A stretch of DNA of 64,000 bases from Amycolatopsis aidingensis (GTDB taxonomy: Bacteria > Actinomycetota > Actinomycetes > Mycobacteriales > Pseudonocardiaceae): assembly GCF_018885265.1 (NCBI RefSeq), contig NZ_CP076538.1, forward strand, positions 3,632,001-3,696,000, written 5' to 3'. Within the stretch, counting starts at the first letter, position 1, and each line of letters starts with the position of its first letter. Below are positions 17,247 to 57,504 of the stretch, piece by piece. The translations under genes and the position numbers were made by a program. Below the pieces are notes generated by a model. The model saw only the letters and a program-made list of their open reading frames with translations, was not told where the DNA came from and did no database searches.

Positions 17247-17265
17247 ACTCATCATGTACCGAACG

Positions 17266-22187: not shown

Positions 22188-22682
22188 GTGAGCGTGCAGC
22201 GCAGGCCGCAGCCGGAGGTGCTGGTCGGCCGTTCGTACACCCGATCGCGGCGGTTCCCCCGGATGTTCGGGCGGATGCCCGGCCGCGACGGCGGCTACGT
22301 GCCCGGCGGGCCCTACACCCTGACCCAGGGGGTGGTGTTCCTGGTGCTGCTGGCCGTGGTGTGGAAACTCCCGGTGCTCGACTGGCTGGGTCCGGCGCGC
22401 TGGCTCGTCCCGCTCGCCGCGCTGGGGGTGCGCCGGGCCCGGATCGAATCCCGCACCCCGCTGGGCTGGCTGGCCGGGCTGTGCACCCACCTGCTGGCAC
22501 CGGCCACCGGAACCCTCCGCGGCAAGCCCTACCGGCCGCAGCGTCCTCAATGGACGCGGCCGCGGCTGTACCTGCACACCCCGGAGCAGCCGGAAAACAG
22601 CGATGCCGCTCTGCGACCCCAAACCGCGGCGGCCGTGTCGCCGCTGCAACATCTGCTCGCCCAGACCCGCGGGGTGGTCTGA
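22188..22682 (+). CDS. TcpE/PrgI-like conjugation membrane protein
   Basis: 164 residues, GTG start three bases after the previous stop. An N-terminal basic segment with Arg-Phe pairs (RSYTRSRRFPRMFGRMPGRDGG) precedes two hydrophobic stretches (VVFLVLLAVVWKLPVL and RWLVPLAALGVRRARI). The rest is a cytoplasmic tail with RTPLGWLAGLCTHLLAP. Gram-positive conjugation operons place a TcpE-like, VirB3-equivalent protein exactly before the VirB4 ATPase, and the topology agrees. Probably helps anchor VirB4 at the membrane. Confidence 0.65.
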   Translation: MSVQRRPQPEVLVGRSYTRSRRFPRMFGRMPGRDGGYVPGGPYTLTQGVVFLVLLAVVWKLPVLDWLGPARWLVPLAALGVRRARIESRTPLGWLAGLCTHLLAPATGTLRGKPYRPQRPQWTRPRLYLHTPEQPENSDAALRPQTAAAVSPLQHLLAQTRGVV

Positions 22683-22683
22683 T

Positions 22684-25357: not shown

Positions 25358-27424
25358 ATGACGGTGATCGCGCGAGCCGCGGCCCGCCTGGCGCCGACCA
25401 TCGCGATCATTCTGCTCACCCTCACCGGCACCACCGGGGCCGCGGTGGCGCAGACGTCACCACCGACCTGCACTCCGCTGCCGACCTGCCTGGTGCTCCC
25501 CGAAGGCGAGGAACCACCACCACGCCCTTCGCTGGACGACCCGCCACCCGCTCCGAACGGGCCACCGCCGCTGCCGCTGCCCACCGAGGTCGGCGACCAG
25601 CTGCACACCGCCGGCATGGACGGCCTGTTCTCCATCAACGACGGCTACGGCCGCACCCTGCACCACTACGACCTCTTCGCCAACCTGCCCTGGCTGCTGG
25701 ACAACCCGGTGCCCACGATCTGGCTGTGGCTGGCCAACATCGGGTTCGCCGTGGGCAAGTACACGCTCGGGTTCGCCGTGTGGTTCACCGAGTGGGCGAT
25801 GGGCAGCCAGGTCCTCACCTGGATCCAGGAACCGGCCCAGCAGCTGGAGCGCATCTGGCAGGCCGACATCATCGGTGCCCTGAAACTGCGCCAGCTGGTG
25901 CTCCTGGCCGCGACCTGCTACCTCGGCCTGCTGTTCTTCCGTGGCCGCACCACCCGCGCCTGGCGGGAAATGATCTCGACCATCGCGATCAACGTGCTGG
26001 CCATCGCCATCATCACCCACCCGGTCGACCTCCTCGTCGGCGACGGCGGTGTACTCAGCCTCAGCCGCGACCTCGGTGCCGACGTCGCCGCCGTGGTCAT
26101 GGGCCGCCAACCCGCGGGCACCGGCAACCCCGCCGCACCGATCGGCCAGTCGCTGATCGACAACCTGCTCATCACCCCCTGGGAGACCCTGAACTACGGC
26201 GCCCCCATCACCCAGGACCGCGAGGTCGACGGTGGCTGCCAGCACTCGGTGGAGCAGGTGCTCGACCAGGGCCCGTGGTCGAGCAAGGACGACAGCACCC
26301 CTGCCCGCGAACTCGATGGCTGCCCCGGTGACTACGGGAAGTACAACGAGGTCGCGGGCGCTGACCGCGCGGTCGGTGCCTGGCTCTACGCCGTGGCGAT
26401 GATCCTGTTCGCCATCCTCACCGTCTGCCTGAACGCCATCCAGGTGCTGGCGCCGTACTTCCTGCTGTTCGAGGGACTGCTGCTGTCGCTGGCACTGATC
26501 GCCGCGCTGGTCCCGGCCTGGCAACACCAGCTGGCCTACCGGATCAGCTCGATTGCCATCACCCTGGCCACGCTGCTGATGGGCATGCTGTTCATCGCAG
26601 TGATGACCATCCTGCTGCGTTCGGTGATGCTGATCGACCTCGGCTCGCAGCTGGTGCGCTTCGCCGTGATCGACATCGTCGTGTTCTCCGGCTTCCTGTT
26701 CCGCAAACGCCTCCTGGCCGGTGCGCAGAGGATGCGCGCCAAGGTCAACACCGGCCTGCAACGCGCCGGTCGCCGCGGCCGCCCCCTCAAACCCCTACCG
26801 ACCCCGATCGTGCCGCCCGGCCCCAACCGGCTCGGACGGACCATCCAGGTCGGCACGACCGCGTTCCGCGAAGCCGCCGTGCAGCCCGCCCAGCAGGTGG
26901 CCGGCAGGCTGCGCACCGCAGGGAAGACCGCGGGCAAGCTGGGCAGCACGGCGCTGGCCTACACCGCCGGCGCACCGGTCGCCTGGCCCCGAGCCGCCCG
27001 GCGCGCCCACACCGCCCTCACTCGCCGGGGCAACACGGCCAAACGCGCCCTGGCCGGCAAGAGCGCCACGGCCAAGACCTACACCACCACCTACGCCCGC
27101 AACCTCGGCACCGCCACCGGCGCACGGCCAGCCTGGAACGCCGCCCGCACCGTCGCCACCGCGGTCACCGCCCGACCACCGGCCCGGCACGCCGCACAGC
27201 AGACACCGGCCACCGCACAGCCGGCGACCGGCGCCGCCCGCCTTGCCGACCTCACACCCCACCCCACCGCCGCGACGCCCCGGTTCCGCGGCCGGAACGA
27301 GGCAGCACCGGCACCGCGGCAACCAGACCCAGGTGCCTTGCCCCCAGGCATGCTGCCGCCACCGAACCCGCTGGCGCAGCGCCTGCGTGATCGGCTCGAC
27401 CACCGCCGGGGAACCCGACCGTGA
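25358..27424 (+). CDS. VirB6/TrbL-like polytopic conjugation protein
   Basis: 688 residues from ATG 25358, since GAGGGGA lies seven bases upstream; the GTG at 25352 is too close. A signal-like N-terminus (APTIAIILLTLTGTTGAAVA) and a Pro-rich extracytoplasmic stretch precede several membrane helices (WLWLANIGFAVGKYTLGF, LVLLAATCYLGLLFF, INVLAIAIITHPV, MILFAILTVCLNAIQVL, LLLSLALIAALV and others). A long basic cytoplasmic tail (residues about 450-688) is Ala/Arg/Thr/Pro-rich. This is the VirB6-equivalent inner-membrane channel component. Two Cys pairs in the loop around GGCQHSV...DGCPGD may form disulphides outside. Confidence 0.8.
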   Translation: MTVIARAAARLAPTIAIILLTLTGTTGAAVAQTSPPTCTPLPTCLVLPEGEEPPPRPSLDDPPPAPNGPPPLPLPTEVGDQLHTAGMDGLFSINDGYGRTLHHYDLFANLPWLLDNPVPTIWLWLANIGFAVGKYTLGFAVWFTEWAMGSQVLTWIQEPAQQLERIWQADIIGALKLRQLVLLAATCYLGLLFFRGRTTRAWREMISTIAINVLAIAIITHPVDLLVGDGGVLSLSRDLGADVAAVVMGRQPAGTGNPAAPIGQSLIDNLLITPWETLNYGAPITQDREVDGGCQHSVEQVLDQGPWSSKDDSTPARELDGCPGDYGKYNEVAGADRAVGAWLYAVAMILFAILTVCLNAIQVLAPYFLLFEGLLLSLALIAALVPAWQHQLAYRISSIAITLATLLMGMLFIAVMTILLRSVMLIDLGSQLVRFAVIDIVVFSGFLFRKRLLAGAQRMRAKVNTGLQRAGRRGRPLKPLPTPIVPPGPNRLGRTIQVGTTAFREAAVQPAQQVAGRLRTAGKTAGKLGSTALAYTAGAPVAWPRAARRAHTALTRRGNTAKRALAGKSATAKTYTTTYARNLGTATGARPAWNAARTVATAVTARPPARHAAQQTPATAQPATGAARLADLTPHPTAATPRFRGRNEAAPAPRQPDPGALPPGMLPPPNPLAQRLRDRLDHRRGTRP

Positions 27425-28581
27425 ACCCCCTGCTCGCCGTCACCCTTGCCGGCCGCCTCCGCGACCGCGCCCGGCAGCATCCCCTCGCCTGGGGCTGCCT
27501 GGCCCTGCTGGCCCTCGCCGGCCCGTTCCTCGGCCTGGCGGTACTGGCCGGGGTCGTCGTGGTGGTCATCGCAGGCAGCGGCGGGAGCGCGGCGACGGTT
27601 GCTCCCCGGCAGGTGCCCGGCATCCCGGACACCATGCTTGTCGCCTACATCCAAGCCGCGCAGCACCTTCCGGAGATCCGTCCGCGGTGCCGGGGTATGC
27701 GGTGGTCCATCCTGGCCGGTGTCGCCCAGGTCGAATCCCGGCACGCCGCCGGACACACCATCGCCCCCAACGGCGACATCCACCCACCCATCCTGGGCCC
27801 AGCCCTGGACGGCAGCGGAGCCGGCGGCAACCGTACCCCGATCCGCAACCGCGACGGCACCTACGCCCGAGCGGCGGGTCCGTTCCAGTTCCTCACCACC
27901 ACCTGGGACACCGTCGGCCAGGACGGCAACCGCGACGGCCACCGCAACGTCCACAACGCGTTCGACGCCGCCCTCGGGGCCGCCGCCTACCTCTGCGGCA
28001 CCGGCCCTCGCGACCTCAATGACGAACCCCAGCTGCGCGTAGCGCTGTACTCCTACAACCACAGCCAGGCCTACGTCACCACGGTCCTGGCCCACATCCG
28101 CTCCTACGACGCCATCCCGCTGCGCCACCGCGGTCGCCCGATCCAGGCCACCGGCGTGGCCAAGACGGTCATCGACGCGGCCATGTCCCAGCTCGGCGTG
28201 CCCTATGCCTGGGGCGGCGGCACCCGGCACGGCCCCAGCACAGGCATCCGCGACGGGGGAGTCGCCGACCGCCACGGCGACTACGCCAAGATCGGCTTCG
28301 ACTGCAGCGGCCTGACCCTGTATGCCTACGCCCAGGCCGGCATCGACCTACCCCGCACCAGCCGAGCACAGTTCCACGCCGGAACCCGCGTACCGAAAGA
28401 AGCCGGCATCGGTGCCCTCCGGCCCGGCGACCTCGTCTTCTACAGCCCCGGCTCGATCCACCACGTCGGCATCTACCTCGGCAACGGCGACATGATCAAC
28501 GCCCCCTACTCGGGCACCACCGTCCGCATCGACCCCGTCGACCTCAGCGAATACGCAGGCGCAGCCCGCCTCCTCCACTGA
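27421..28581 (+). CDS. Bifunctional transglycosylase/NlpC-P60 cell-wall hydrolase (VirB1 role)
   Basis: 386 residues, GTG start overlapping the previous stop. One N-terminal transmembrane helix (about 25-52), then a lytic transglycosylase-like domain (ILAGVAQVESRHAAGH, with Glu near 103; AAGPFQFLTTTW; VALYSYNHSQAYV), then a C-terminal NlpC/P60 peptidase (GVPYAWGGG, catalytic Cys in FDCSGL near 294, His in HHVGIYLG near 347). Such enzymes open peptidoglycan for the conjugation apparatus in Gram-positive elements. All catalytic residues appear present. Confidence 0.92.
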   Translation: MNPLLAVTLAGRLRDRARQHPLAWGCLALLALAGPFLGLAVLAGVVVVVIAGSGGSAATVAPRQVPGIPDTMLVAYIQAAQHLPEIRPRCRGMRWSILAGVAQVESRHAAGHTIAPNGDIHPPILGPALDGSGAGGNRTPIRNRDGTYARAAGPFQFLTTTWDTVGQDGNRDGHRNVHNAFDAALGAAAYLCGTGPRDLNDEPQLRVALYSYNHSQAYVTTVLAHIRSYDAIPLRHRGRPIQATGVAKTVIDAAMSQLGVPYAWGGGTRHGPSTGIRDGGVADRHGDYAKIGFDCSGLTLYAYAQAGIDLPRTSRAQFHAGTRVPKEAGIGALRPGDLVFYSPGSIHHVGIYLGNGDMINAPYSGTTVRIDPVDLSEYAGAARLLH

Positions 28582-29273: not shown

Positions 29274-29718
29274 AGGAGAAACCTCCTTGGTGTCAGGATG
29301 GAAAGTCAGACAGCCTGACGACCGCGACGGGTTGGTATTGCCGACGACGTCGCTGCATGACTTGCTTGGCTTGGTGATGGCTCATCCGCGTCAGGTCGGA
29401 GGAGGGTTCTCCCTGGAGGGGAGCGGTCGGCACGTCGTTCGGTCTCCGCGGGCGACCGTTGAGCGCAGGCAGGCATTCGTGGAACGCGGCCTCGCCGAGG
29501 CTGCTCAAGGTGTTGACCTCGCGCCAGTGGGTCCCTACGGCGACGGTGCATGCTCCGATCCTTGTGGCGTGGGTCGGTCGGACTGTGTCCCTGGTGCCAG
29601 ACAGTCGGCGATGTCGCTTTCATTCCGTTTCGTCCTGGTTTGTGTCGTTGTGCAGATTGCTGGCGTCGGTGGTGCAGCGTGGGAGGGGGCGCCGGCCACT
29701 TCTGGTGTGGCCACGAAC
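29274..29718. other. Unassigned stretch at the left end of the inserted cargo
   Basis: About 445 bases between the truncated ATPase gene and the sigma factor. Frames are open on both strands but show no domain or good ribosome site. GAGAACTCTCCTCCC at 29252 recurs at about 38960, and AGGAGAAACCTCC follows it. Confidence 0.4.
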
Positions 29719-34361: not shown

Positions 34362-34494
34362 CGGCATGCCCTCCCTCAGACTCGTATCCTCATTCGAGAA
34401 CAATAAGCCCCTACTCGGAGCCGATTGTCGAGCTGCAGTCGGTGGTGGTGCCCTGGCAAGGAGCCGGTTCGGCGGCTGATCCTCGATCGTCTGA

Positions 34495-34860
34495 TCAACT
34501 TTCGTAGGGCCAGCGGCCGTCTGCGACGGCTGGTTCGGGGTCGAAACGGGGTTGCGCATCGTCCGGGCTGGTGCCGAGCGCGTGGGCGATCTCATGCCAG
34601 GTGTGGCCGCCTGCGCGAGCGTCGTGCACGAGCTGCGGCAGGAATCGTTCGGCCTGGTGGATGAGGCTAGCGGTCAGGGCGATGGTGGTGAGGTCGTCGC
34701 CGAGCCAGAGCCGGCACTAGGCCGTGCGGGTAACCTCGCCGGGGTTGGCGGGACTCGTGCAAGTACACGCCAGCGCATCCTCAACCGCAGCTCGTCTGGT
34801 GGGAAGCCGTGACCCCTTGGCGGATCGCGACGGTGCGCTAGCGGCCCAGCTTTGAATAGT
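34495..34860 (-). pseudogene. Remnant of a small HTH protein
   Basis: A 74-codon open piece (34495-34719) reads LTTIALTASLIHQAERFLPQ, then ARAGGHTWHEIAHALGTSPDDAQ, a helix-turn-helix segment common in short actinomycete proteins, and ends WPYES. An in-frame TAG at 34717 blocks extension; homologous-looking sequence (RRDPPRGHGFPPDELRLRM) continues in another frame to about 34860. Frameshifted and without a start, hence a relic. Confidence 0.45.
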
Positions 34861-45345: not shown

Positions 45346-47313
45346 GTGCGTGCTGTGTTGGGTGGGGTTGGTGAGGCGTTGCGGGAGATCGTGGCCGAGT
45401 TCCTTCCGACGGCTCGCGGTGGTGGTTCCCGCCGGGCCGCGCCGGGGTTCCGGACGGTCGGTCCTGACGCTGCGGCTGTGGTGAACAAGTTCCGGACGGA
45501 TGAGCCGGTGTTCGCGGTGCAGGTGTTGGTGCGGTGCCGGTCGGAGATTTCTGGCCGGGTGCAGGCCCATCTGCGGAGTGTGGTTGGTGCTTTTGATGTG
45601 TATCGGGGTGAGAACTACTGGCGTGTCCGGGGTGTGCGGGTGCTGGGGGTGCATCTGGGTTCCGATCTGCCGGTGGTGCGGCGGCGGTTTGATCGGCGGT
45701 TCTTCAGCGGGTTGGCGACGCCGCCTCGGCGGTGTCTGGTGACGGCGAGCGAGATCGCGGCCCTGCTGAAGCCGCCGTCGGGTCGGTGCCAGTCGCCGGC
45801 GATCGCGCGGAGCCGGGGGTGGGTGCAGCCCGCGCCGCGGGAGTTGCCGACCTACCGGCCGGATGCGGGGTTGGTGCGGTTGGGCTATGTCACCGACGTC
45901 AATGGGGAGGATCGGCTGGTCGGTATCCCGTTGCGGGAGTTGCTGTTCTCCGCGCGGTTCGGCAAGGCGGGGTTTGGGAAGACCGAGGAGGCGCTGGCGC
46001 AGGCGATCGAGCTTGCCCGCGCGGGTGGTGGGGTGTGGTTCCTCGACCCGCATGCGGATGGGTGGAAGCGTGCCAAGCCGTATCTGTCCGACCCGGCGTT
46101 GCGGGGCCGGTTGTGGGAGGTCAACCTCGACGTCCGTGGGCGCGGTCGGCGGTTGCCGGGGTGGAATCCGCTGAGCATGCGGGGTTTCTCCGAGGAGGAC
46201 ATCGAGGATCGGGTGGACGCGGTGGTGACCTCGTTCGCGACCGCGCTGGGGTGGGGTGATGCGGCTCCGCGGGCGAAGTCCATTCTCACCAAGGCCTGCG
46301 AGGCGCTGTGCTATCTGGCGATGCGGCTACCTGCGGACTGTGCGCCGACGATCTTTCAGATCCCGACGTTGGTGGACGATGCGGAGTGGCGGGAGGAGAT
46401 CCTGCGCTACCTGAAACCGAGCGTGCGTCGCTATTGGACGGACAGTTTCCCGAAGCTGCCGCCGGATGCGACCACCGTTGTCACCAACATCATCAACCGG
46501 CTGCGGACCAGCCCCACGCTGTCGGCCTTCCTCGGATCGTCGCGGACGACGTATGACGTGCGCAGGGCCATGGACACCGGGAAGATCGTGTTCGTCTGCA
46601 CGACCGGCGCTGGGGAGACGAACAAGCTGATCACCAGCTTCATGATCTACGACCTGTTCCGCGCGGGCCGCAGCCGGGTCGATACCCCGCCGGAGCAGCG
46701 CCGCCGGTGTGACGCCTTCATCGACGAGCTCGCCGCGGTGGACGGGGCGTCCCGCGGCTACCTGGCGGCGATCCTGGAGCAGTTGCGCAAGTATCTGGTG
46801 GCGCTGCACGCGATGAACCAGATGCCCGACCGGTTGACCGCGGAGACCCGCAGGGCGCTGCTGCAGAACCAGTCGTTGCTGCTGACCAGCGCTGCGGCCA
46901 TCGACGGCGCCCGTACCGTCGCCCGGGAATACGGCGGGCTGGTGCAGCCGGGCACGATCACCGAGCTGGAGCGGTTTCACCACGTGGTCACCGCGACCCT
47001 GGGCGGGCAGCGCACGACACCGTTCAAGATCCGCGGGCTGCATGTGGAGGACGAGTTCGCCGAGCACTTCCACCCCGAGTGGGAGGCCGAGGTCGACGCC
47101 TGCCTGGACAAGAACCTGGGGCGTCGCCCGATCGGTGAGGTGCTGGACGAGCTGGAGGATCTGGACGGGCGGATCCTGGACACCCTGCGCGGCAACACTC
47201 CACCGCCCCGTTCGCAGCGTGGCCGGCCGCCGGGCCGGGGCAGCGGTGCCGGTGTCGAGCTGGACCCACCGGAGGCCGCAGGTCCGTCGTCGTTCCCCTC
47301 GACGGTGGAGTAG
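45346..47313 (+). CDS. TraG/HerA-like conjugation ATPase, C-terminal two thirds
   Basis: 655 residues counted from GTG 45346, where the readable frame begins; no good ribosome site, so translation may depend on re-initiation or the gene may be dead. Walker A FGKAGFGKTE (about 206-215), then WFLDPHADGWKRAKPYL, the Walker B FIDELAA (about 458-464) and a helicase/HerA-like LLQNQSLLLTSAAA sensor segment. This is the VirD4/TraG-type motor that brings DNA to the channel in actinomycete ICEs. It is severed from its N-terminus by 15.8 kb of cargo and a frameshift. Followed after six bases by the replication-relaxation gene. Confidence 0.75.
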   Translation: MRAVLGGVGEALREIVAEFLPTARGGGSRRAAPGFRTVGPDAAAVVNKFRTDEPVFAVQVLVRCRSEISGRVQAHLRSVVGAFDVYRGENYWRVRGVRVLGVHLGSDLPVVRRRFDRRFFSGLATPPRRCLVTASEIAALLKPPSGRCQSPAIARSRGWVQPAPRELPTYRPDAGLVRLGYVTDVNGEDRLVGIPLRELLFSARFGKAGFGKTEEALAQAIELARAGGGVWFLDPHADGWKRAKPYLSDPALRGRLWEVNLDVRGRGRRLPGWNPLSMRGFSEEDIEDRVDAVVTSFATALGWGDAAPRAKSILTKACEALCYLAMRLPADCAPTIFQIPTLVDDAEWREEILRYLKPSVRRYWTDSFPKLPPDATTVVTNIINRLRTSPTLSAFLGSSRTTYDVRRAMDTGKIVFVCTTGAGETNKLITSFMIYDLFRAGRSRVDTPPEQRRRCDAFIDELAAVDGASRGYLAAILEQLRKYLVALHAMNQMPDRLTAETRRALLQNQSLLLTSAAAIDGARTVAREYGGLVQPGTITELERFHHVVTATLGGQRTTPFKIRGLHVEDEFAEHFHPEWEAEVDACLDKNLGRRPIGEVLDELEDLDGRILDTLRGNTPPPRSQRGRPPGRGSGAGVELDPPEAAGPSSFPSTVE

Positions 47314-47319
47314 ATCCCG

Positions 47320-48198
47320 ATGGTGCGCCTTGATTCGTTCCAGCGGGACGCGTTGACCGCGATCTACTGGCACCGGCTGGTCAACACCGATCAGCTCGGC
47401 CGGTTGGTCGGGCCGTCGATGCCTGCCCGCACGGTGCGGGACAAGCTGCTGGCGCTGCGGCGCGCCGGACTCGTCGACCGCATCGTGCACCAGCGGGCGC
47501 CCCGCGTGTGGCATGTCACCGAGGACGGCGCGGCGGCCGTCGAGGCGGCGGGAACGGTCGATGCCCGCCCCTACCGGCTGCCCAGCATGGCGGTGGCGGA
47601 CCTGCTGCACCGGCACGCCCTGGACGTGGTCGAGACCGGGTTGGCGTTCGTCGAGACCGCGCGAGCGCACGGGCACGATTGCGGGCCGTTGTCGTGGACG
47701 CCGGAGGTCGCGCACCGCGTCCGGGCCGGATCGGATCGGCGGGATGTCGTGATCGCGGATGCCGTGCTGCACTACGTCTGCGAGCGGGACGGTCGGCGGG
47801 TCCAGCGGGTGTTCTTCGTGGAGGTGGACCGGGCGACGATGCCGGTGGCGCGGCTGGCGCGCAAGCTGGGCCGCTACGTGCGCTACCACGGCTACGTCGC
47901 CAAGCAGGCCGCGGACAACCGGCCGGTGTGGCAGCAGCGCTACGCCCGCTTCCCCCGGGTGCTGGTGGTGCTTTCCGGTGCGCCCGAGCATGTGCTGGAC
48001 CGCCGGCTGGCTGACCTGCGCGCCCACACCCAGGCCATGACCACCGCGGCGCTGGCCCACGACCGGGTGGTGGCGTTGGCGACGACGCTGGAGCGGTTGC
48101 GCTGCCGGGGTCCGTTGCGGGAGATCGCGGTGCCGCTGCTCGGCGACGACACCCGGCCGGTTCCGGTGGTGGGCCCGCCTGCGGCGAGGGCGCGATGA
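47320..48198 (+). CDS. Replication-relaxation family protein
   Basis: 292 residues, ATG 47320. An N-terminal winged-helix (QRDALTAIYWHRLVNTDQLG, VRDKLLALRRAGLVDRIV) is followed by the nuclease-like domain RVFFVEVDRATMPVARLARK, with the E-x-D pair, and YARFPRVLVVLSG. This is the replication-relaxation family common in actinomycete conjugative elements, thought to nick or process DNA in place of a classical relaxase. It lies between the coupling ATPase and the ParB-like gene and overlaps the latter by four bases. Confidence 0.85.
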   Translation: MVRLDSFQRDALTAIYWHRLVNTDQLGRLVGPSMPARTVRDKLLALRRAGLVDRIVHQRAPRVWHVTEDGAAAVEAAGTVDARPYRLPSMAVADLLHRHALDVVETGLAFVETARAHGHDCGPLSWTPEVAHRVRAGSDRRDVVIADAVLHYVCERDGRRVQRVFFVEVDRATMPVARLARKLGRYVRYHGYVAKQAADNRPVWQQRYARFPRVLVVLSGAPEHVLDRRLADLRAHTQAMTTAALAHDRVVALATTLERLRCRGPLREIAVPLLGDDTRPVPVVGPPAARAR

Positions 48199-49331
48199 AC
48201 ACCGCGGCGTCGCCCAGCCAGGTGGGGCTGTCGCCGCGGCTGCGGCAGCGCCGGTTCACCCTGCTGCCGTTGCGGGGTGAGGGCACGCCGTTCACCGAAC
48301 CTCAGGGCCGGGTACCGGGGGACAGCACCGCGCCGGCCGAGCTGGCGGATCTGGTCTCCTCGATCGCCACCGTCGGGGTGCTCCAGCCCGTGCTGGTGGA
48401 AGAGGTCGACACCGGTGAGGGGCAGCCGCCGGTGATGAAGCTGGCGGCGGGGGAGCGGCGGCTGCGTGCCTGCCGCTGGGGCGCGGTGCACCGGCCGGAC
48501 AACCCGCACTTCGCCGCGCTGCCCGCGGTGGTGTGTCCGGGGCCGCTGTCGGATGAGGAACGGCGGATCTGGCAGCTGGTGGAGAACCTGGCCCGCGAAG
48601 ACCTGCGGCCCGGGGAGCTGGCAGCCGCGCTGGTGCTGGATCGCTGCGCCGTGTTGCTGGGCAAGCTGATCGCCGGTGGGCACACGGTGCCCGCCGAGGT
48701 GTATGCGATCGAGGACCCGATCGCGCGGTTCCAGGCGATGGACAAGCTGCGCGGCACCGACAAGGAGTGCGCCGCCCCGTGGTCGGAGGTGCTGACCCGG
48801 CTGGGGCTGCAACTGAGCCCCCGCAAGGCACGCGAACTCGTCCGCGCCTTCGCCGAGATGCCCCGCGAGATCTCGGCGGAGATGGACGAGGCCAAGATCA
48901 GCCTGCACACCCGCATCCGGTTCATCGAGCTGCGCCGCGGGCGGGCGGCCGCCGCCGAGGACATCTGGGCCGCGGTGAAGAACACCGGCCGGGCGAAGCT
49001 GCTGCGCTGCGCCGTGGCGGCCGCCACCGAGCGGGACGACCTCACCGCCGAACAGGCCCTGGCCGAGGCCGAACGTCAGCACGAGGAAGCCAATGCCGCC
49101 CGCGCCGCGGCCCTGCGGGCACCGGACAACCCCACCGCCGACCGCGCCGACACCGGCGCCGGAGACCTCGAGGAGCACCCGGTGGTCGAGCGCCAGCTGG
49201 TGGACAACGCCCTGGCCGCACTGCGTGCCCTCGTCCAGGCGGTCACGGCCGGGGCGCGCCTTGACGACCACGACCGCGCCTCCCTGCGCCTGCTGGCCGA
49301 GGAACTCACCGCCGCACCCGCCGCGGCCTGA
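48195..49331 (+). CDS. ParB/Spo0J-like partition protein
   Basis: 378 residues, ATG overlapping the upstream stop. The N-terminal ParB/sulfiredoxin-type domain is recognisable: LADLVSSIATVGVLQPVLVEE, then LAAGERRLRACRWGAVH and IWQLVENLAREDLRPGELAA. The central part is helical with an HTH-like segment (WSEVLTRLGLQLSPRKAREL). The C-terminus is Ala/Glu-rich. Probably supports maintenance of the excised element or acts as a regulator; no ParA is present in the window. Confidence 0.8.
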   Translation: MNTAASPSQVGLSPRLRQRRFTLLPLRGEGTPFTEPQGRVPGDSTAPAELADLVSSIATVGVLQPVLVEEVDTGEGQPPVMKLAAGERRLRACRWGAVHRPDNPHFAALPAVVCPGPLSDEERRIWQLVENLAREDLRPGELAAALVLDRCAVLLGKLIAGGHTVPAEVYAIEDPIARFQAMDKLRGTDKECAAPWSEVLTRLGLQLSPRKARELVRAFAEMPREISAEMDEAKISLHTRIRFIELRRGRAAAAEDIWAAVKNTGRAKLLRCAVAAATERDDLTAEQALAEAERQHEEANAARAAALRAPDNPTADRADTGAGDLEEHPVVERQLVDNALAALRALVQAVTAGARLDDHDRASLRLLAEELTAAPAAA

Positions 49332-49355
49332 ACACCCGAGAGAGGGGCGAGAGGG

Positions 49356-50483
49356 ATGTCGGTGTTTCTCGGACTGCCGGTGCGCACCGCGCCGGCCGCG
49401 CGCTGCGACTGCCGCCGGTGCCCGTGGTACTCCGGGGCCGACGCCGATCCGGTCGTGACGATCGCGCCGGTGTGCTCGGGCTGCAACGCCGACTGCTCCT
49501 ACTGCGGCTGCGCCCGCGCCGAGACCCCGGCCGTAGGCGGACCACCGGCCTGCGCGAGCTGCCCGATCCGGTGCGGCTCCCGCACCGACATCACCGCCTG
49601 GATGAGCGACATCGGCCACACCCTGGAGTTCGACGACATCCGCATCAGCGGCGTGCTCCCACCGGGCATGCCGACCTTCATCCCGCAGGTCGACGGTTCG
49701 GGTGTGACCGAGCTGGACGCCGGGCTGCGGTGGCCGGCCTACGCGGTGGGTCTGCGGCGGGTGTTCTCCCCGCACACCCACGGGATCTACCCACGCTGGC
49801 GGCAGGACGCCACCGCGGCCCAGATCCTCGGGCTCGCGGAGTCCACCCTGACCGTACTGTCCGGCTACGGCGAGGACCCGCTGGTGGAGGCGTTCTGGAC
49901 GGCCCGGCACCGCGACGGGCTGATCGAGCGGATCGCCGCCCTGCGCTTCGACCTGGTCCTGGCGCCGAACTACTCCATCTACGGCAACTGGCCGCGCGCG
50001 GAGCACCTGATCAACATGCGGCGGTCACTGTTGCTAGCGGGCGAGCTCGCCGACGCCGGGATTGCCACCGTGCCGAACCTGTACTGGTTCCGGCTGGAAG
50101 ACCTGCGCCGTTACGCGGACTGGATCACCGCGAACCCACTGCCCGCGGTTGCGGTCAACCTGCAGACCGTCCGGGAGAACCGCAACTGGGACACCTGGGC
50201 GCTGCCCGGCCTGTGCTGGCTGGCCGAGAACCTCCCGGACGACCTCCCGGTGATCCTCACCGGACTGTCCCGCCGCGACCGGGTCGCCACCGCGGTCGAA
50301 CTCTTCGGCGACCGGCTGATGCTGGTCAGCCAGAACCCCGCGCAGTACGCGTTGCACGGCGCCGTCATGACCCCGGATGGGCGGCAGGACCTGCACGCCC
50401 GCATCCCGGACGCCTTCGCCGCCTCCGTGCGGTACATGGCCTCGCTCCTGCCACACCCCACCCTCACCCGAGGAGGTGCCTGA
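49356..50483 (+). CDS. DUF4417-like protein with an N-terminal Cys cluster
   Basis: 375 residues, ATG 49356 after GAGAGAGG. The N-terminus carries many Cys (CDCRRCPWY, CSGCNADCSYCGC, CASCPIRC), enough for two or more metal or Fe-S sites. The C-terminal two thirds matches DUF4417: FDLVLAPNYSIYGNWPRAEH, then ADAGIATVPNLYWFRLEDL, AVAVNLQTVRENRNW and VILTGLSRRDRV. CxxxCxxC of radical-SAM type is close to CNADCSYC, so an Fe-S enzyme is possible, but the family is uncharacterised. Common cargo of actinomycete conjugative elements. Confidence 0.7.
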   Translation: MSVFLGLPVRTAPAARCDCRRCPWYSGADADPVVTIAPVCSGCNADCSYCGCARAETPAVGGPPACASCPIRCGSRTDITAWMSDIGHTLEFDDIRISGVLPPGMPTFIPQVDGSGVTELDAGLRWPAYAVGLRRVFSPHTHGIYPRWRQDATAAQILGLAESTLTVLSGYGEDPLVEAFWTARHRDGLIERIAALRFDLVLAPNYSIYGNWPRAEHLINMRRSLLLAGELADAGIATVPNLYWFRLEDLRRYADWITANPLPAVAVNLQTVRENRNWDTWALPGLCWLAENLPDDLPVILTGLSRRDRVATAVELFGDRLMLVSQNPAQYALHGAVMTPDGRQDLHARIPDAFAASVRYMASLLPHPTLTRGGA

Positions 50484-50804
50484 ATGGGCCGCCATGTGTG
50501 GATCCTGCTGGGCTGGTCGCCCGACTACGGTGCCCCGACCACGCCAGTCGCCGTGCTCGGCCTGGACATCGGCACCGACGGCACCGTCACCCGCCACGTG
50601 GAATGGATGCCGAGGCAGTACCAGCACGGCCAGACCTGGCGGCACCGCCTGGCCACCACCCCCGCCGAGGAGCTCCCGGCGCGGATGCAGCTGTGGGAGA
50701 ACTCGCCGACCTGCCCGGCCGCCCGGGTCGAGCCGCTGCTGCCTGACCGCGGGCTGAGCGAGGCCGTGCAGTTCCAGTTCGACGACCTGCTCCGCCCGTC
50801 CTGA
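50484..50804 (+). CDS. Small hypothetical protein of the element
   Basis: 106 residues, ATG directly after the previous stop with GAGGAGG before it. Soluble, no Cys cluster or membrane helix; VWILLGWSPDYGAPTTPVAV, then LGLDIGTDGTVTRHVEWMPR and the C-terminal LSEAVQFQFDDLLRP. No family recognised. Tight spacing shows it belongs to the same operon as the DUF4417-like gene and the kinase-like gene that follows. Confidence 0.6.
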   Translation: MGRHVWILLGWSPDYGAPTTPVAVLGLDIGTDGTVTRHVEWMPRQYQHGQTWRHRLATTPAEELPARMQLWENSPTCPAARVEPLLPDRGLSEAVQFQFDDLLRPS

Positions 50805-50827: not shown

Positions 50828-53311
50828 GTGGGCACGAACTCCAAGGCCGCGCACGCCTCCTACGCCGTCGCACCCACCGCAGCGGGAACGGCCGCCGCGG
50901 TGGAGGAGGACGTCAGCTACGCGCTCCATCTGTCGGCCGTATGCCTCAACGGCAAGCAGCCGCAGAACCCGGCGGAGGAGGCGCTCGCGCAGGTCGCGCT
51001 GATCGATCTCGGCGGGATCGACCCGACCGACCCGTACGGGCCGCCCGTGTTCGACCTGCCCGACGACCTCGGGCAGCGCTACGCCCTCCTGGTCGATGCC
51101 GTACAGGCCGCCCAGCACGCCGCCACCCAGCTCGATGACGAGTCAGCGGCGATCTTCCACGCCAAGCTGCACGACTACTGCGGCTCGTTTCTGCATGACC
51201 AGGAGCCCGACGCCCTGGTGACGCTCGCCGGTGAGCAGGGCTTCACTTGCCCGTCGCTGGTGGGACTGTCGGGCAGCGGCACGCACCCGCTGGAACACTG
51301 GCTCGACCCCTCGTATCCGGCTGAGGCCGCATCGAAGAAGCACATCCAGGACGTCGCCCTCGACCGCTACGCCGCACTCTGCGCCGGCGAGACCGTGGGC
51401 GGCAAGACACTCGCGGACTGGCAGCAGACCGATCCGACGATCACCACGCACGCGCACGGCGCCGAGCTTCCCGCCGCATTCCCGCCATGGCAGGCCACCG
51501 CCGACGACCTCGCCGCGGCCCGGGCCGCGGTCACCACCGCCCTCGCGGCCTGTGCCGGAACCGAGACCGCACCAGCGACACCGGCGACCGTGCACGCCCT
51601 GATCGACGCCGAGAACACCCTCGCCACCGCGGCCAACCCGGACCTCACCGCTGAGCACGCCGCGGCGGTCGCCGCCGCACGCCACCACATCGACCAAGCC
51701 TTGAGCCAGGTGACCGGGCACCAACTCCACACGGCGCTCGCCGCCGCGGCCGAGCAGGGCCGAATCAACGCCACCGACCCGCAGGTCCTCAACGCACCCC
51801 AACTGCTGAAGCTGCTGCGAGCCTCCACCCCGGCCGGGGAACGCGCCGACCTCCAGAAGCTCGCCGCCGACCGGGCCACGCAACTCCAGCACCTGGACAA
51901 ACCGGCCCTCATCGTGAACGAGGTCCTCGAGGGACCGACCGGCCATCTGCCCGCCTTGGGTACGCCAGGGGCCTACACCGAGGCGAGCGAGTTCGTCGCC
52001 GGGGCGCACGAGCTGTCCGCGTTCCACACCGCGGCGTCGACCTGGAACCCGGTCGATCCGCTCCCGGTCACACCGCACACCCAGCAGGCGAGCCACCAGA
52101 AGATCACCGCGTGGGCGCACCAGCAAACCCAGGACAACCTCCGCAACTTCTGCACCACCTGCGGCCTGCTCCCGCAGCACCTGTCCACGGTGGCGACCAA
52201 ACCGCACCTCGCCCGCCTGCTCGGCGCGTACACCTACGCCGACAAGGGCGGCATCAACACCATCAAGGCCCAGTTGCAGAAGAAGTACGACACCAAACTC
52301 TCCCCGCCGACGGCCACCGGCACGAAACCGGCCGCGCCAGCCGCTACCGCATCGGAGAAGTCGTCCGGGAGCAGCTTCGGTGCCCAGCACGCCCACATGC
52401 TCAGCGCCCTGCGCCAGGCGCAGGCCTCCTACTCCGCCGTGCCGCCGTATCTGGACCCCGGCACGGTCAAGGCGTGGGACTTCGGCGCCGGCACACCCGC
52501 CCAGCTCGGCGGAACGCACCCCAAGACCCTGCACCCCGGTCCGGACGGCACCACCTGGATGGCCAAACGCGAAGGCACCCCACGCGGCGGGGCGATGGTC
52601 CAGGCCGAAGCGACCGCGTCCCGGGCCCTGGCCCGCGCGGGCCTGCCCGCGTTGCCGGTCTATGCCACCACCATCGGTGGGAAACCGGCGTCGGTGCAGC
52701 CGATGCTGACCGGCGCCAGCCCGATGCCCGGCTCGCCCGGCCAGTGGTCCCAGGCCGATGTGGACGCCGTCGTCCGCCTGCACGTCGCCAGCTGGGCGCT
52801 GGGCAACCACGATGCGCACCACGAGAACGTCCTGCGCACCAGCGACGGCGGCCTGATCCCCATCGACCAGGGACAGAGCTTCAAGAACTACGGCCGCGAC
52901 AAGCTGAGCTTGGCGTACCGGCCCAGCACCACCACCGTCTACCACCGCGCCTACGACGCGCACCTGGCCGGCACGCTGCCGAAAGGGGTCCGGGTCGAGC
53001 CCGCCGCCGCGCACTCGGTGATCAAGCGGCTCGAGTCGATCCCGGACGCCGAATGGCGCGCCCTGCTGCGCACCGCCGCCCACGCCGGCGCGGCGCACAA
53101 GGACGTCAAGTGGGTCGCCCCGATGCGCTCGCACGCTGCCCAGCAGCACGGCATCGCCGAGTCGGCGGTCACCACCAGCCAGATCGCCGAGGCCTTCCTG
53201 GACCACGCGGTGGAGCGGAAGAAGAACCTCCGCCGCGACTTCGCCGCGTTCTTCCAGAAAGAGCTGAAGCTGGACTCCGCGGCAGCGCTGCAACACCTCG
53301 GGAAGCGCTGA
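50828..53311 (+). CDS. Large tagged protein with C-terminal HipA/PI3K-like kinase motif
   Basis: 827 residues, GTG 50828. It begins MGTNSKAAHASYAVAP, nearly identical to the start of the next protein. Residues 20-510 are Ala-rich helical. From about 530 a kinase-like domain follows: Lys in TTWMAKRE (about 578), ASRALARAGLPALPVYATTI, a Pro-Met hinge-like stretch, the catalytic loop GNHDAHHENV (about 660-669) and the metal-binding IPIDQGQSF (about 677-685), as in HipA and related phosphotransferases. The substrate is unknown. Secretion, toxin and regulatory roles are all possible; the shared tag favours a common fate with the next protein. Confidence 0.7.
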   Translation: MGTNSKAAHASYAVAPTAAGTAAAVEEDVSYALHLSAVCLNGKQPQNPAEEALAQVALIDLGGIDPTDPYGPPVFDLPDDLGQRYALLVDAVQAAQHAATQLDDESAAIFHAKLHDYCGSFLHDQEPDALVTLAGEQGFTCPSLVGLSGSGTHPLEHWLDPSYPAEAASKKHIQDVALDRYAALCAGETVGGKTLADWQQTDPTITTHAHGAELPAAFPPWQATADDLAAARAAVTTALAACAGTETAPATPATVHALIDAENTLATAANPDLTAEHAAAVAAARHHIDQALSQVTGHQLHTALAAAAEQGRINATDPQVLNAPQLLKLLRASTPAGERADLQKLAADRATQLQHLDKPALIVNEVLEGPTGHLPALGTPGAYTEASEFVAGAHELSAFHTAASTWNPVDPLPVTPHTQQASHQKITAWAHQQTQDNLRNFCTTCGLLPQHLSTVATKPHLARLLGAYTYADKGGINTIKAQLQKKYDTKLSPPTATGTKPAAPAATASEKSSGSSFGAQHAHMLSALRQAQASYSAVPPYLDPGTVKAWDFGAGTPAQLGGTHPKTLHPGPDGTTWMAKREGTPRGGAMVQAEATASRALARAGLPALPVYATTIGGKPASVQPMLTGASPMPGSPGQWSQADVDAVVRLHVASWALGNHDAHHENVLRTSDGGLIPIDQGQSFKNYGRDKLSLAYRPSTTTVYHRAYDAHLAGTLPKGVRVEPAAAHSVIKRLESIPDAEWRALLRTAAHAGAAHKDVKWVAPMRSHAAQQHGIAESAVTTSQIAEAFLDHAVERKKNLRRDFAAFFQKELKLDSAAALQHLGKR

Positions 53312-55269
53312 TGGGCACCAACTCCAAGGCCGCCCACGCCACCTACGCCATCAGCCCCTCGACCACGCACGTCGGCGCTCCCGCCGACAGCGACACCGTC
53401 GAGGCGGCCACCTCCAGCCAACCACCACCCGAGCACCAGCCCGGGGGAGAGGCGGACGGTCACGTCCGGGACCCCGGGCTGCTCCCGGTCACCCCGATCC
53501 CGGACACACCCGACGTCGGCAAGGCCTTCGGCGAACCGATCCTCGTCGGCGGCGCCGACCTGCACGCCTCCGCCGCCACGCTCGTCAGCTACGACAGCCC
53601 GGACGGCCCCCGCACCGTCCTGCACGCCCTGGTGGCCGAGGACGCCGAAGACAAGCTGCTGGAAGCGCTGAACATCACCAAGGACATGGTCCCCACCCAG
53701 GTCGAGCAGAAGGTCAACGGCCGGCTACCCCTCGACCGGGAACACCAGATGGCCGACACGCTGATCGCGGCGGCCAAGAGCGTCAACCACCACCTCGGTA
53801 AGGGCGACCTGGCACCCGGCAAGGTTCCCGGCACCACGGCGAAGAAGATCAGTAAGGCCCAGCAGGTCCTCAGCACGGTGCAAGCCACGATCGGCGCCGA
53901 CCCCGGCCCGGTGGAAGCTGCCATGCTCGAGCACTACCAGCACAAGCTCGCGGCGATCATGCACGCCGTCGACACGGCCACCAAGGTGGGCCAGATCGAA
54001 CCCTTCCTGCACGAAGGCACCACCACCATCACCGTCATGAAACCGGCCCTGCCCGAGGAGGCCGGCGGCGAGCACGTCGCGGCGGTGCTGCGCGACGCCA
54101 CCCGGATCAAACCGACCCTGGACGACACCACCGGAACAGCCAGCTGGGACGGCCTCACCCGCTGGCAGAACGCCTCCGGGCGCGAGTACGCCATCGACCT
54201 CGGCGACGGGTTCCACGCCGTCTACCACCCCTACGCCATCAACAACCCCACCACCACCGAGCACTCTCTGCGGGGACGGTTGGAAATCATCGCCCCACCC
54301 GGCGAGGGCCACGGTCCCGACGTGGTCCGCCGCCTCGGGCAGCTGCACCTGGCCAACCGCCCCATGACCCGCGAGGAAGGCGAGTACGGCTACCTCAACG
54401 CCAACATCACCGCGCAGGGCCTGACCGACCACGCCGAGATCACCCAGGCCAAAGCCACCGGGCAGCACATCGAGGAGATGATCCGGCACGAACTCCTCTA
54501 CGAACGCGCCCACCAGGCCGTCGGCATGGATCAGGCCCAACTTGCCCGCTTCGCCAAGAACATCCAGCTGGAGGCCCACACCCGCGCACTGCCGGCGCAG
54601 GTCACCGTGCTGCGCGACGCGGTCGCCACGGCCACCGGGCACGCCGACGGCGCGGCCCTGGCCGCCACCCCCGGCTACGACCCGACACCCCGTCGCGGCG
54701 GCGGCTGGCTCACCTGGAACCGCTTCGACGTCGCCAACTCCCTGGACACGCTGCGCGAGGCGACCAAAGGCAAGAAACTGGTGCACGCCACGTCCATGAC
54801 CGGGCTCAAGGCCATGCTCGCCACCGGCGTACTCGCCTCCACCGAACGCCGCTCGATCATGGGCGTCAAACCGGGCGTCGGCAAGAGCGAGCAGGAAGAC
54901 AAGAAGACCGGCGGCGCCAGCTCGGTCTTCCTGCGCATCCTGAAGAAGACCACCAGCAACGCCCCCCGGCTGGTCTGGGACCAGCCCGAACGGCTCCTCA
55001 ACCGGGCCGACTACTACGGCGCCAACTGCGACACCTTCGGCGCCGTCAACAGCACCGCCGCCACCCGCAACCCCTTCAAGATCGCCGCGTTCAACAGCGG
55101 CGCCAACGAGATCATGTTCGGCGACGGCATCGACCTGCTCGGCGACGAAGGGCCGAGCAGGATCCACTGCACCTCCGAAGAGCAGCGCGCCGAGATCCAC
55201 GCCATGCTCACCGCCAAAGGCGTCACCCACATCGCCGGTAAACCGATCGACAGCGTCCTGAAAGCCTGA
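53311..55269 (+). CDS. Large tagged protein with possible ADP-ribosyltransferase-like C-terminus
   Basis: 652 residues, ATG 53311 overlapping the upstream stop by one base. It opens MGTNSKAAHATYAISP, the same tag as its neighbour. Residues 90-480 are mixed helical and beta and unassigned (YAIDLGDGFHAVYHPYAIN and others). The C-terminal 165 residues read KLVHATSMTGLKAMLATGVL (His in the place of the ART H motif), SVFLRI, and GANEIMFGDGIDLL (Glu). An H...E pattern of this sort occurs in ADP-ribosyltransferase and KptA-like folds. The match is by pattern only, but an ADP-ribosylglycohydrolase lies 1.3 kb downstream. Confidence 0.6.
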   Translation: MGTNSKAAHATYAISPSTTHVGAPADSDTVEAATSSQPPPEHQPGGEADGHVRDPGLLPVTPIPDTPDVGKAFGEPILVGGADLHASAATLVSYDSPDGPRTVLHALVAEDAEDKLLEALNITKDMVPTQVEQKVNGRLPLDREHQMADTLIAAAKSVNHHLGKGDLAPGKVPGTTAKKISKAQQVLSTVQATIGADPGPVEAAMLEHYQHKLAAIMHAVDTATKVGQIEPFLHEGTTTITVMKPALPEEAGGEHVAAVLRDATRIKPTLDDTTGTASWDGLTRWQNASGREYAIDLGDGFHAVYHPYAINNPTTTEHSLRGRLEIIAPPGEGHGPDVVRRLGQLHLANRPMTREEGEYGYLNANITAQGLTDHAEITQAKATGQHIEEMIRHELLYERAHQAVGMDQAQLARFAKNIQLEAHTRALPAQVTVLRDAVATATGHADGAALAATPGYDPTPRRGGGWLTWNRFDVANSLDTLREATKGKKLVHATSMTGLKAMLATGVLASTERRSIMGVKPGVGKSEQEDKKTGGASSVFLRILKKTTSNAPRLVWDQPERLLNRADYYGANCDTFGAVNSTAATRNPFKIAAFNSGANEIMFGDGIDLLGDEGPSRIHCTSEEQRAEIHAMLTAKGVTHIAGKPIDSVLKA

Positions 55270-55290: not shown

Positions 55291-55749
55291 ATGCCCGAAC
55301 ACGTCACCGCGGACCGTGCCTGGGACGCACTCAACCACCTGCTGACCGGCCGGATCCCCGACGCCGACGACACCGAGGCGCTTGCCGGGGCGGAGCTGAT
55401 CGTGCGCGACGGCGACCTCGAGGTCTTCCGCGCCGCCCTGGCCCGGCACGCACGCCGCGACCACGACGATCCCGCCGTTTTCTGGATCCGCCCCCTCGTC
55501 CCCGCCGACCACGACCCCGACACCGGGCTACCCCAATTCGACCCCGACACCGTGCCGCGCCGCGGCCTGCGCATCCACCGCGCCCAGCTCGACGGCGTCC
55601 GGCTCGGACTCGCGCTGGACAGCGGCCAACACGCCCTCATCCAGCCCGCCCGCGGCGAGCAGCTGGCCGTCCTGCAGGACTGGGACACCTGGATCACCAC
55701 CCTGCCCGACGATCGTCGTCGCGACCTCGAGTCGCTCGACCACGACTGA
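55291..55749 (+). CDS. Small acidic protein downstream of the tagged pair
   Basis: 152 residues, ATG 55291 with GAGGAG twelve bases upstream. Very acidic; LIVRDGDLEVFRAALARHAR, HRAQLDGVRLGLALDSGQHA, then LAVLQDWDTWITTLPDDRR. No signal peptide or membrane helix. Position right after two possible effector genes and the acidic nature are compatible with an immunity or chaperone role, but I do not recognise the family. Confidence 0.55.
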   Translation: MPEHVTADRAWDALNHLLTGRIPDADDTEALAGAELIVRDGDLEVFRAALARHARRDHDDPAVFWIRPLVPADHDPDTGLPQFDPDTVPRRGLRIHRAQLDGVRLGLALDSGQHALIQPARGEQLAVLQDWDTWITTLPDDRRRDLESLDHD

Positions 55750-56465: not shown

Positions 56466-56481
56466 TGGTGGCTTGCCACCA
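56466..56481. promoter_or_regulatory. Palindromic operator 1
   Basis: TGGTGGCTTGCCACCA: 7-bp arms around TT, directly upstream of the RHH gene. It is the reverse complement of operator 2 at 36-bp distance. Confidence 0.65.
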
Positions 56482-56501
56482 ATCAAGCGGAGGCGTATCT
56501 T

Positions 56502-56517
56502 TGGTGGCAAGCCACCA
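56502..56517. promoter_or_regulatory. Palindromic operator 2
   Basis: TGGTGGCAAGCCACCA: the same arms around AA, with TT before and AA after extending the symmetry. It lies 70 bases before the glycohydrolase start and probably binds the RHH protein together with operator 1. Confidence 0.65.
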
Positions 56518-56586
56518 AAATGGGCGGTGGCAACGAACGCCACGCGGGGGACGTGTCCGTCGCGTGCGCGCCAGGGGAGGAGCTGC

Positions 56587-57504
56587 ATGTCTACGACAAC
56601 CATGCTTGATCGGGCCCACGGGGGACTGCTCGGACTCGCGGCGGGCGACGCGCTCGGCGCCACCGTGGAGTTCCGAACCCCGGAACAGATCGCCGCGGAG
56701 TTCGGCCGGCACACCGAGATCATCGGCGGCGGGACCTTTCGCTGGAGACCGGGCCAGGGCACCGACGACACCGACATGACCGCAGCCGTCGCCCGCGCGT
56801 ACGTCGAGGGCTACACCAGCCACCGAGTCGGCAAGCACTTCCTGGACTGGTACCGCGAAGGCCCCCGCGACATCGGCAACAGCACAGCGACCGCACTGTC
56901 CACACTGGCCGCCACCGGCGACCCCAGCAGCAGCGGACACGCGGCTCTCGCCACGATCGGCCCTAACCGCGCCGCCGGAAACGGTTCCCTCATGCGCGCA
57001 CTGCCCACCGCACTGGCCCGCAACGACCAGGCCACCCGCATCCGCGAAGCCGCCGAGATCTCCAGCATCACTCACGCCGACCCCCGTTGCGTCCAGGCCT
57101 GCATCGCCTACGTCGAGATCGCCGCCCACCTCCTCGACGGCCACGACGCCGGCGAGGCGATCAACGCCGTACTGAACGTTCCCGAACTGGACCGCGACGA
57201 CGTCCGGCAGGCACTGCGGTACCCGTCCGCGACCCCGGTCGATGAGCTGTCGACGGGCGGGTACGTCCTGGACTCCCTGGCCGCCGCCGTATGGGCCATC
57301 CAGCAACCCCACCCACTCGAAGACACCCTGATCGACATCGTCAACCGCGGGGACGACGCCGACACCACCGGCGCCATCGCCGGCGGACTCCTCGGCCTCC
57401 GCGACGGCATCCACGCCATCCCCACCCGCTGGCAAACCGTTCTGGAGTACGGCCCGGAGTTCCACACCCTCGCGAACGCGTTACTGGTCGTACGCATCGG
57501 TTGA
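56587..57504 (+). CDS. ADP-ribosylglycohydrolase family protein
   Basis: 305 residues from ATG 56587, with GGGGAGGAG upstream; the longer frame crosses the operators. Motifs of the DraG/ARH fold: RAHGGLLGLAAGDALGATVE, the metal-binding GTDDTDMT (about 57-64), ATIGPNRAAGNGSLMRALP, and the second metal site DDADTTGAIAGGLLG (about 256-270). It removes ADP-ribose from proteins or nucleic acids or hydrolyses related compounds. Here it sits downstream of a possible ADP-ribosyltransferase and next to a small RHH regulator, so an ADP-ribosylation cycle or antitoxin role is a good hypothesis. Confidence 0.88.
   Translation: MSTTTMLDRAHGGLLGLAAGDALGATVEFRTPEQIAAEFGRHTEIIGGGTFRWRPGQGTDDTDMTAAVARAYVEGYTSHRVGKHFLDWYREGPRDIGNSTATALSTLAATGDPSSSGHAALATIGPNRAAGNGSLMRALPTALARNDQATRIREAAEISSITHADPRCVQACIAYVEIAAHLLDGHDAGEAINAVLNVPELDRDDVRQALRYPSATPVDELSTGGYVLDSLAAAVWAIQQPHPLEDTLIDIVNRGDDADTTGAIAGGLLGLRDGIHAIPTRWQTVLEYGPEFHTLANALLVVRIG

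Follow-up and report, generated by a model that had tools for sequence, protein, structure and literature searches.

A short N-terminal tag common to two proteins, one kinase-like and one ADP-ribosyltransferase-like, encoded by a probable integrative conjugative element of Amycolatopsis aidingensis

The window analysed here is a stretch of 64,000 nucleotides from the genome of Amycolatopsis aidingensis (RefSeq assembly GCF_018885265.1, contig NZ_CP076538.1, positions 3,632,001 to 3,696,000 of the forward strand), in which two neighbouring genes on the same strand (+) encode a kinase-like protein (P1) and an ADP-ribosyltransferase (ART)-like protein (P2). The P1 frame (50828-53311, +) has a GTG start and encodes 827 aa, the P2 frame (53311-55269, +) has an ATG start at 53311 and encodes 652 aa, and the stop of the first overlaps the start of the second in the sequence TGATG. 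A sequence-only reading of this DNA had claimed two adjacent large proteins at 50828..55269, otherwise unrelated and with a common N-terminal tag. Both reading frames were confirmed there, and of the first 17 residues of P1 (MGTNSKAAHASYAVAPT) and P2 (MGTNSKAAHATYAISPS), 13 are identical counting the M. The parts of the two genes are as follows.

50828..50878 (+): P1 tag, residues 1-17, from the GTG start; predicted local distance difference test score (pLDDT) below 50 for P1 residues 1-28
50903..52300 (+): P1 residues 26-491, helical region (AlphaFold2 model, whole-protein mean pLDDT 83)
52373..53308 (+): P1 residues 516-827, predicted kinase domain (K580, D662, N667, D680), from fold and catalytic-type residues
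53311..53361 (+): P2 tag, residues 1-17, from the ATG start that overlaps the P1 stop; pLDDT below 50 for P2 residues 1-56
53494..54723 (+): P2 residues 62-471, conserved middle region, partly matched in 9 of 10 phage fusions described below (alignment, model and frame matches)
54724..55266 (+): P2 residues 472-652, ART domain of predicted DarT fold (H492, E600)

When the start regions of all cross-frame pairs from the 2,074 start codons of the window (frames of at least 100 codons) were compared, P1 and P2 formed the best pair with 12 of 16 residues identical after the M, followed by a runner-up with 9. In BLASTP the likeness of the two proteins amounted to the tag with a weak and gappy extension (28% over 181 columns, E 5e-5); an alignment along their whole length, named beforehand as evidence against the claim, was thus not found, and a single duplicated gene was rejected as the origin of the pair on the same alignment.

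The pattern MGxxxKxHxx[YF]xVxP describes the tag on both proteins, its firmest positions being G2, H9 and P16, which never vary in the 16 aligned P1 sequences and are conserved in at least 90% of 22 aligned P2 sequences. A protein-database search with P2, in which the 8,000 candidates with most shared words were scored, gave 145 relatives, and 103 of the best 120 of these were tagged by score, using a matrix built on 101 of the relatives that were scored with it; a variable linker precedes the conserved body. Among the 41 loci scanned, the tagged pair lies side by side on one strand in 30, including L008, where the P1 frame is interrupted, and one further locus (L001) is a fragment bearing P2 only. 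The other ten gave no tag above threshold, seven (L010, L028, L029, L031, L033, L037 and L038) owing to a truncated, masked or incomplete P2 and three (L035, L036 and L041) because the tag is diverged or absent. In the Firmicutes pairs with a fitting start codon a diverged tag is present, reading MGGG[GS]KKK in L035 and, from a GTG start, MGGG[ST]KKK in L036. As observations on individual loci, the P1 frame of L008 (7631-9064, Amycolatopsis sp. A133) appears interrupted, and the P2 relative of L040 (plasmid CP089609.1, 19420-21680) is annotated as two overlapping frames, of which the tagged N-terminal one alone entered the tag counts.

The tag was also sought outside the pair. Across the 41 loci no third tagged frame scored above 8, the tag being found on P1 and P2 genes only, and further tagged warheads were rejected on this result. 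Among 150 genomes from this order, the same two contained P1 and P2, namely that of the window and one of the same genus. The pattern MGTN[SA]K[AT], which covers this wording only, gave six matches in 397 genomes, four being P1 or P2 starts and two being frames that lack the remaining tag. In the window's own genome 12 matches with up to two mismatches were found against 8 for a reversed control. Two were exact and correspond to P1 and P2, one with a single mismatch lacks the rest of the tag, and nine have two mismatches. The 20-residue Streptomyces tag was detected at 43 places in 25 of the 72,556 plasmid records searched, with at most two per record, and all 25 places listed are P1 or P2 starts. 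Unrelated housekeeping proteins with the tag, which had been named as the other way in which the claim could fail, did not appear among the matches examined in these genome, plasmid and pattern searches, and no mention of the tag wording was found in the open-licence literature.

The two tags of a locus resemble each other more than those of different loci. Identity was 11.6 of 16 residues within a locus and 8.9 between loci (22 distinct pairs), a value reached by none of 10,000 shuffles, and residues 18-51 of the same 22 pairs showed no within-locus excess. In all 10 genera compared, within-locus identity exceeded the mean identity to orthologous tags from other genera, the strongest case being Mycolicibacterium with 14 of 16 within the locus versus at most 8. 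A single reader common to both tags would be the simplest explanation of this likeness.

For P1, the model predicts a CtkA/HipA/PI4K fold with catalytic-type K, HD, N and D residues, and kinase activity is suggested by fold and motif; K580, D662, N667 and D680 do not vary in any of the 16 aligned P1 sequences that are borne by elements. The C-terminal kinase of the sequence-only reading is borne out by this fold and these residues, although the match of P1 to the Pfam family HipA_C (24.3 bits) falls below the gathering score of 30.5. Seven full-length P1 relatives were found in a large protein database, including the window's own and five from Amycolatopsis, and a further one was the metagenome protein P0010, which gave no Pfam match; single-sequence and profile search had the same outcome, and this small number is a limit of that search, since DNA-based searches find more. 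A PDB sequence search with P1 gave nothing useful. The protein ends in HLGKR, with no KRRR-like cluster.

The C-terminal domain of P2 is likewise predicted to adopt a DarT fold and may be catalytically active, with H492 and E600 identical in 22 of 22 aligned sequences, in agreement with the ART and its H...E pattern noted earlier. P2 matched no Pfam family at E<=1, and so has no curated-family membership, and its fold gave nothing in BFVD at E<=0.001. Its sole match in a PDB sequence search (E 0.0005) was a designed helical protein aligned to the helical part, which was taken as composition. The P2 chain ends with the residues VLKA inside the folded ART domain, whose last blocks have pLDDT 92-96, and shows no KRRR-like cluster. 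A genome-contig scan with P2 alone found nothing, tblastn against 50,697 phage records gave no match, and the P2 profile matched a head morphogenesis protein of phage Pan1 weakly (26.8 bits).

The two enzyme domains were, however, found together in phage frames reached through P1. A P1 profile search of IMG/VR gave 12 contigs, in 10 of which the kinase frame runs on into a P2-type ART domain in the same order (E 2.6e-32 to 1e-14, calculated over the frames of just these contigs), and 9 of these 10 fused frames also match the P2 middle region (E <0.01); the independent number of fusions is smaller, as the values in L058-L060 and in L061-L062 are near-identical. Of the remaining two contigs, L068 has a weak ART match and L057 an ART of another family. 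The P2 profile itself gave nothing in a viral scan; it was the P1 scan that brought these P2 domains to light, in the frames that carry the kinase. Head-domain tests covered six of the 12 frames, four of them among the 10 fused, and head-protein-like N-termini were seen in three of these four. The MuF score passed the cut-off in L061 and stayed under it in L063 and L065, and PHROG head families were matched by L057 (best 1e-25), L061 (1e-11), L065 (4.6e-7) and L063 (0.0012). The sole match of L058 was to a PHROG of unknown function, and L068, in Pfam alone, gave no head match.

Named phages show related arrangements. In prophiFSQJ01-1, gp54 is encoded by the gene after the portal gene, carries a P1-type kinase (153 bits), a VG15 domain and a PF03496 ART, and is annotated as a "minor capsid and ADP-ribosyltransferase domain fusion protein". 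Onyinye gp16 (kinase match 99 bits) is annotated as an ADP-ribosyltransferase and also has PF03496. Mycobacterium phage Phrappuccino (L045) encodes a 2,030-residue protein (5905-11997) with a P1-type kinase near its N-terminus, 3.8 kb after a PF03747 hydrolase gene (1062-2063). Phage frames that unite kinase and ART, together with a head-type part in those where one was recognised, point to joint delivery of the two with DNA in phages, and because some phages carry both domains in one protein, P1 and P2 look like enzymes destined for transfer into the next cell with the DNA.

The genes around the pair are listed below. Neighbour counts refer to phmmer relatives of window proteins at 39 P2 loci, many of which end at 10 kb or at contig ends.

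17266..18474 (-): tyrosine integrase, probably marking the element's left side (Phage_integrase, E 1.5e-12)
22603..25284 (+): VirB4-like ATPase (AAA_10, E 7.7e-42)
27421..28581 (+): SLT/NlpC-P60 peptidoglycan hydrolase, a probable part of the conjugation machine (NLPC_P60 E 1.6e-24, SLT_2 E 6.4e-7)
45346..47313 (+): VirD4-like coupling ATPase, candidate tag reader (Walker-A-like GKAGFGKT and position; no Pfam match; 22/39 loci)
47320..48198 (+): Replication-relaxation (relaxase-like) protein (PF13814, E 1.2e-23; 22/39 loci)
48195..49331 (+): ParB-like protein (E 2.7e-7; 28/39 loci)
49356..50483 (+): DUF4417 protein (E 3.6e-5, below cut-off; 31/39 loci)
50484..50804 (+): small acidic protein of 106 aa upstream of P1, possible chaperone or immunity protein (relatives at 26/39 loci)
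55291..55749 (+): small acidic protein of 152 aa downstream of P2, possible chaperone or immunity protein (relatives at 32/39 loci)
56473..57504 (+): ADP-ribosylglycohydrolase (PF03747, E 7.4e-73, match from residue 50), possible reversal enzyme (phmmer relative near 16/39 P2 loci)

P1 relatives lie near P2 at 33 of the 39 loci, or 35 with two phage loci that this count leaves out. The window holds a gene set of the type found in an integrative conjugative element (ICE), namely an integrase, a VirB4-type ATPase, a relaxase-like protein and a coupling ATPase, the last recognised by motif and position only; the host element is therefore described here as a probable ICE, with transfer suggested by these genes, and the conjugation-type setting proposed before is upheld by the VirB4-like, VirD4-like and Replic_Relax genes. 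In AP028456.1, a plasmid of Kitasatospora, a one-strand run of genes leads from conjugation proteins to P1 and P2, and its VirD4-like relative is annotated as "ATP/GTP-binding protein". When the genomes belonging to four loci were searched for the VirB4 type, three gave a match over the cut-off; in the Nocardiopsis genome one lies 15.5 kb before P2.

Relatives of the 106-aa protein have a net charge of -3 to -16 in 24 of 26 cases, the other two being wrongly delimited, and those of the 152-aa protein one of -5 to -19 in 29 of the 30 listed, one being wrongly delimited. The genome of the window has two PF03747 genes, one of them 1.2 kb downstream of P2; the true start of this hydrolase gene probably lies downstream of the TTG. 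In L035 a PF03747 gene sits, in the same orientation, between the DUF4417 gene and P1, with a relative in the same position in L036. PF03747 came from a Pfam scan of the P2-flanking genes, and no search aimed at the DarG macrodomain was made.

Several other features were observed in these regions. The ParB-like and DUF4417 genes (48195-50483) accompany P1 and P2 from Actinobacteria to Firmicutes, and no explanation of the role of DUF4417 was found in the available part of PMC12704722. Between the blocks of conjugation genes lie two NucA/NucB-type DNase domain proteins (35491-36630 and 42399-43556, -; E 3.4e-10 and 9.8e-8) and, in the same stretch, a DUF2891 protein (33321-34595, -; E 1.7e-112). 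A sigma-70 family factor (29227-30372, +), with about 216 residues preceding its sigma domains, directly follows conjugation genes. Near the Firmicutes pair of L035 a Cas12f1-like TNB domain protein (16974-18389, -) is encoded, and a polymerase clamp and an actin-like gene are also present in the locus.

It is proposed that the unfolded tag would act as an address label on a flexible arm. A single part of the transfer machinery encoded by the element itself would recognise it, the likeliest readers being the VirD4-like coupling protein and a small acidic adaptor from a neighbouring gene. P1 and P2 would then enter the recipient together with the DNA and modify molecules there so as to help the incoming element establish, as T4 Alt does for its phage, while the ADP-ribosylglycohydrolase and the small acidic proteins may protect or restore the donor; a DarT-like modification of incoming single-stranded DNA by P2 is one possible activity. 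The head part is missing in the conjugative-type elements and the tag is what P1 and P2 have in common, so the tag is read, by analogy with the phage frames, as a putative delivery header. We infer the catalysis, substrates, tag reader and translocation, as well as the transfer of the element, from gene content, models and comparison. That P1 and P2 form a matched effector enzyme pair of a probable ICE, with tag-directed entry into the recipient, is considered moderately probable as a whole. The design of one tag with different warheads is supported in its effector-like part, given the kinase and ART in single phage frames, and fails as an open-ended set, given that P1 and P2 alone are tagged in the scanned loci. 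More tentatively, and with rather less confidence, the 17-residue peptide could be an element-specific delivery label in Gram-positive conjugation, with a kinase-ART weapon existing in two formats: as one chain on a phage head-type protein, or as two labelled proteins, each label being tuned to the machine of its own element.

A number of points weigh against delivery by means of the tag. Shared ancestry confounds the within-locus likeness, an effect that was reduced and not removed, and compared with the closest other genus within-locus identity was above in 5 of 10 genera, equal in 2 and below in 3. The tag is lacking in 17 of the 120 listed P2 homologues, mostly shorter entries, was not recognisable on the Euzebya P1-P2 pair, and gave no match in 3 of 28 P2-bearing plasmids. 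Of these plasmids, 27 of 28 are non-mobilizable according to MOB-suite (as given by PLSDB), and self-transfer therefore rests on the reading of the genes alone. For the Firmicutes pairs, no type IV secretion system (T4SS) gene was found among ten L035 proteins or by similarity to window genes, and AAA_10 was over the cut-off once, weakly, in the genome of one of two pairs and not in the other. Of the 16 loci with a glycohydrolase neighbour, 13 belong to Streptomyces or Kitasatospora, in which the gene is on the opposite strand, and within 10 kb it is absent in each of the nine Amycolatopsis loci scanned. One of the four tested fused phage frames has no recognised head domain. Lastly, T4SS signals are described as C-terminal in the part of PMC5536186 available, and the tag of P1 and P2 is N-terminal.

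This unusual position (PMC5536186), together with linkage to the VirD4-like, relaxase-like, ParB and DUF4417 genes, would also fit a pair that acts inside the donor, where the tag docks both enzymes on a conjugation or partition complex and phosphorylation and ADP-ribosylation regulate transfer with no export. This is judged unlikely: both domains occur in single phage frames, three of four tested being head-protein-like, for which action in the infected cell would be expected, and the Firmicutes pairs keep a diverged tag with no recognised T4SS nearby. Still less probable is a host-resident toxin, defence or addiction module, in which P2 would be an ART toxin, the glycohydrolase and small acidic proteins its antidotes, and the tag a means of co-assembly or regulation; the DarT fold, a neighbour of PF03747 type, present near 16 of the 39 loci and beside P2 in the window, the conserved acidic neighbours and the non-mobilizable typing of most P2-bearing plasmids suit it, and the tag of the kinase, the conserved conjugation-type cluster and the phage frames are left unexplained. 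A nucleotide-level effect, whether recent gene conversion or a shared 5' DNA or RNA control element, would account for tags so alike within a locus and is largely refuted, hence very improbable, since identical tag residues use the same codon at a frequency (0.547) near that expected from codon usage (0.516; 338 codons, 28 distinct loci).

To our knowledge, the choice of protein cargo by Gram-positive conjugation machines is poorly understood. With delivery through the tag as the favoured reading, P1 and P2 offer a short, exchangeable and self-matching peptide with two natural cargos, which makes the question directly testable. The pair further connects genes of conjugative-type elements with the enzyme domains of phage frames, a part of which have N-termini resembling head proteins, and suggests that conjugating actinomycetes may alter proteins or nucleic acids of the recipient on arrival.

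The publications used for comparison were available in part, and the statements made from them refer to those parts. The system had been presented as undescribed, and its kind proves to be partly known from the polyvalent proteins that Iyer et al. 2017 (PMC5512222) describe for phages and conjugative elements, early effectors which are predicted to enter the recipient with DNA and for which an ArdC-N "header" domain is proposed in conjugative delivery. A split, N-terminally tagged kinase-ART pair was not found described in the parts used of PMC5512222, PMC9503650, PMC5536186 and PMC12704722, or in the titles and opening abstract lines of the open-licence PMC papers that the searches gave. As with polyvalent proteins, the enzymes concerned include ARTs and kinases encoded beside T4SS-related genes or within virion proteins, and this context was found here as transfer-type genes in the window and head genes around the phage relatives. 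They differ in that P1 and P2 have one recognised catalytic domain each, both being joined in the phage relatives, and in that the warheads are split over two proteins headed by short peptides instead of a header domain; the polyvalent kinase group has an insert between His and Asp, whereas in the P1 sequence His661 and Asp662 are adjacent.

The phage minor head proteins with a C-terminal ART, described in PMC9503650 and represented by prophiFSQJ01-1 gp54, resemble the pair through the P1-type kinase of gp54 and the kinase with P2-type ART of the 10 IMG/VR frames. They are single, untagged polypeptides, and the PF03496 ART of gp54 and Onyinye gp16 belongs to another family than that of P2. In the tfs3 ICE of Helicobacter pylori, a common short C-terminal tail of the proteins CtkA, PZ39 and Fic is proposed as a T4SS signal (PMC5536186). 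These proteins are likewise ICE-borne, CtkA has the kinase fold of P1, and a short terminal sequence is common to otherwise unrelated proteins; their tail, however, is C-terminal and positively charged, a signal not present in P1 and P2 with their N-terminal tag, the human cell is the described target, and no DarT-fold ART is among them in the part of the paper used. P2 is like DarT in its C-terminal fold and invariant catalytic-type glutamate and unlike it in that the ART sits in a tagged protein of 652 residues with a PF03747 gene as the neighbour observed. Phage T4 Alt is an ART that is injected with the phage DNA and modifies host proteins (PMC5512222, PMC9503650); in contrast to this virion protein, P2 is a tagged protein of a conjugative-type element and has a kinase as its partner.
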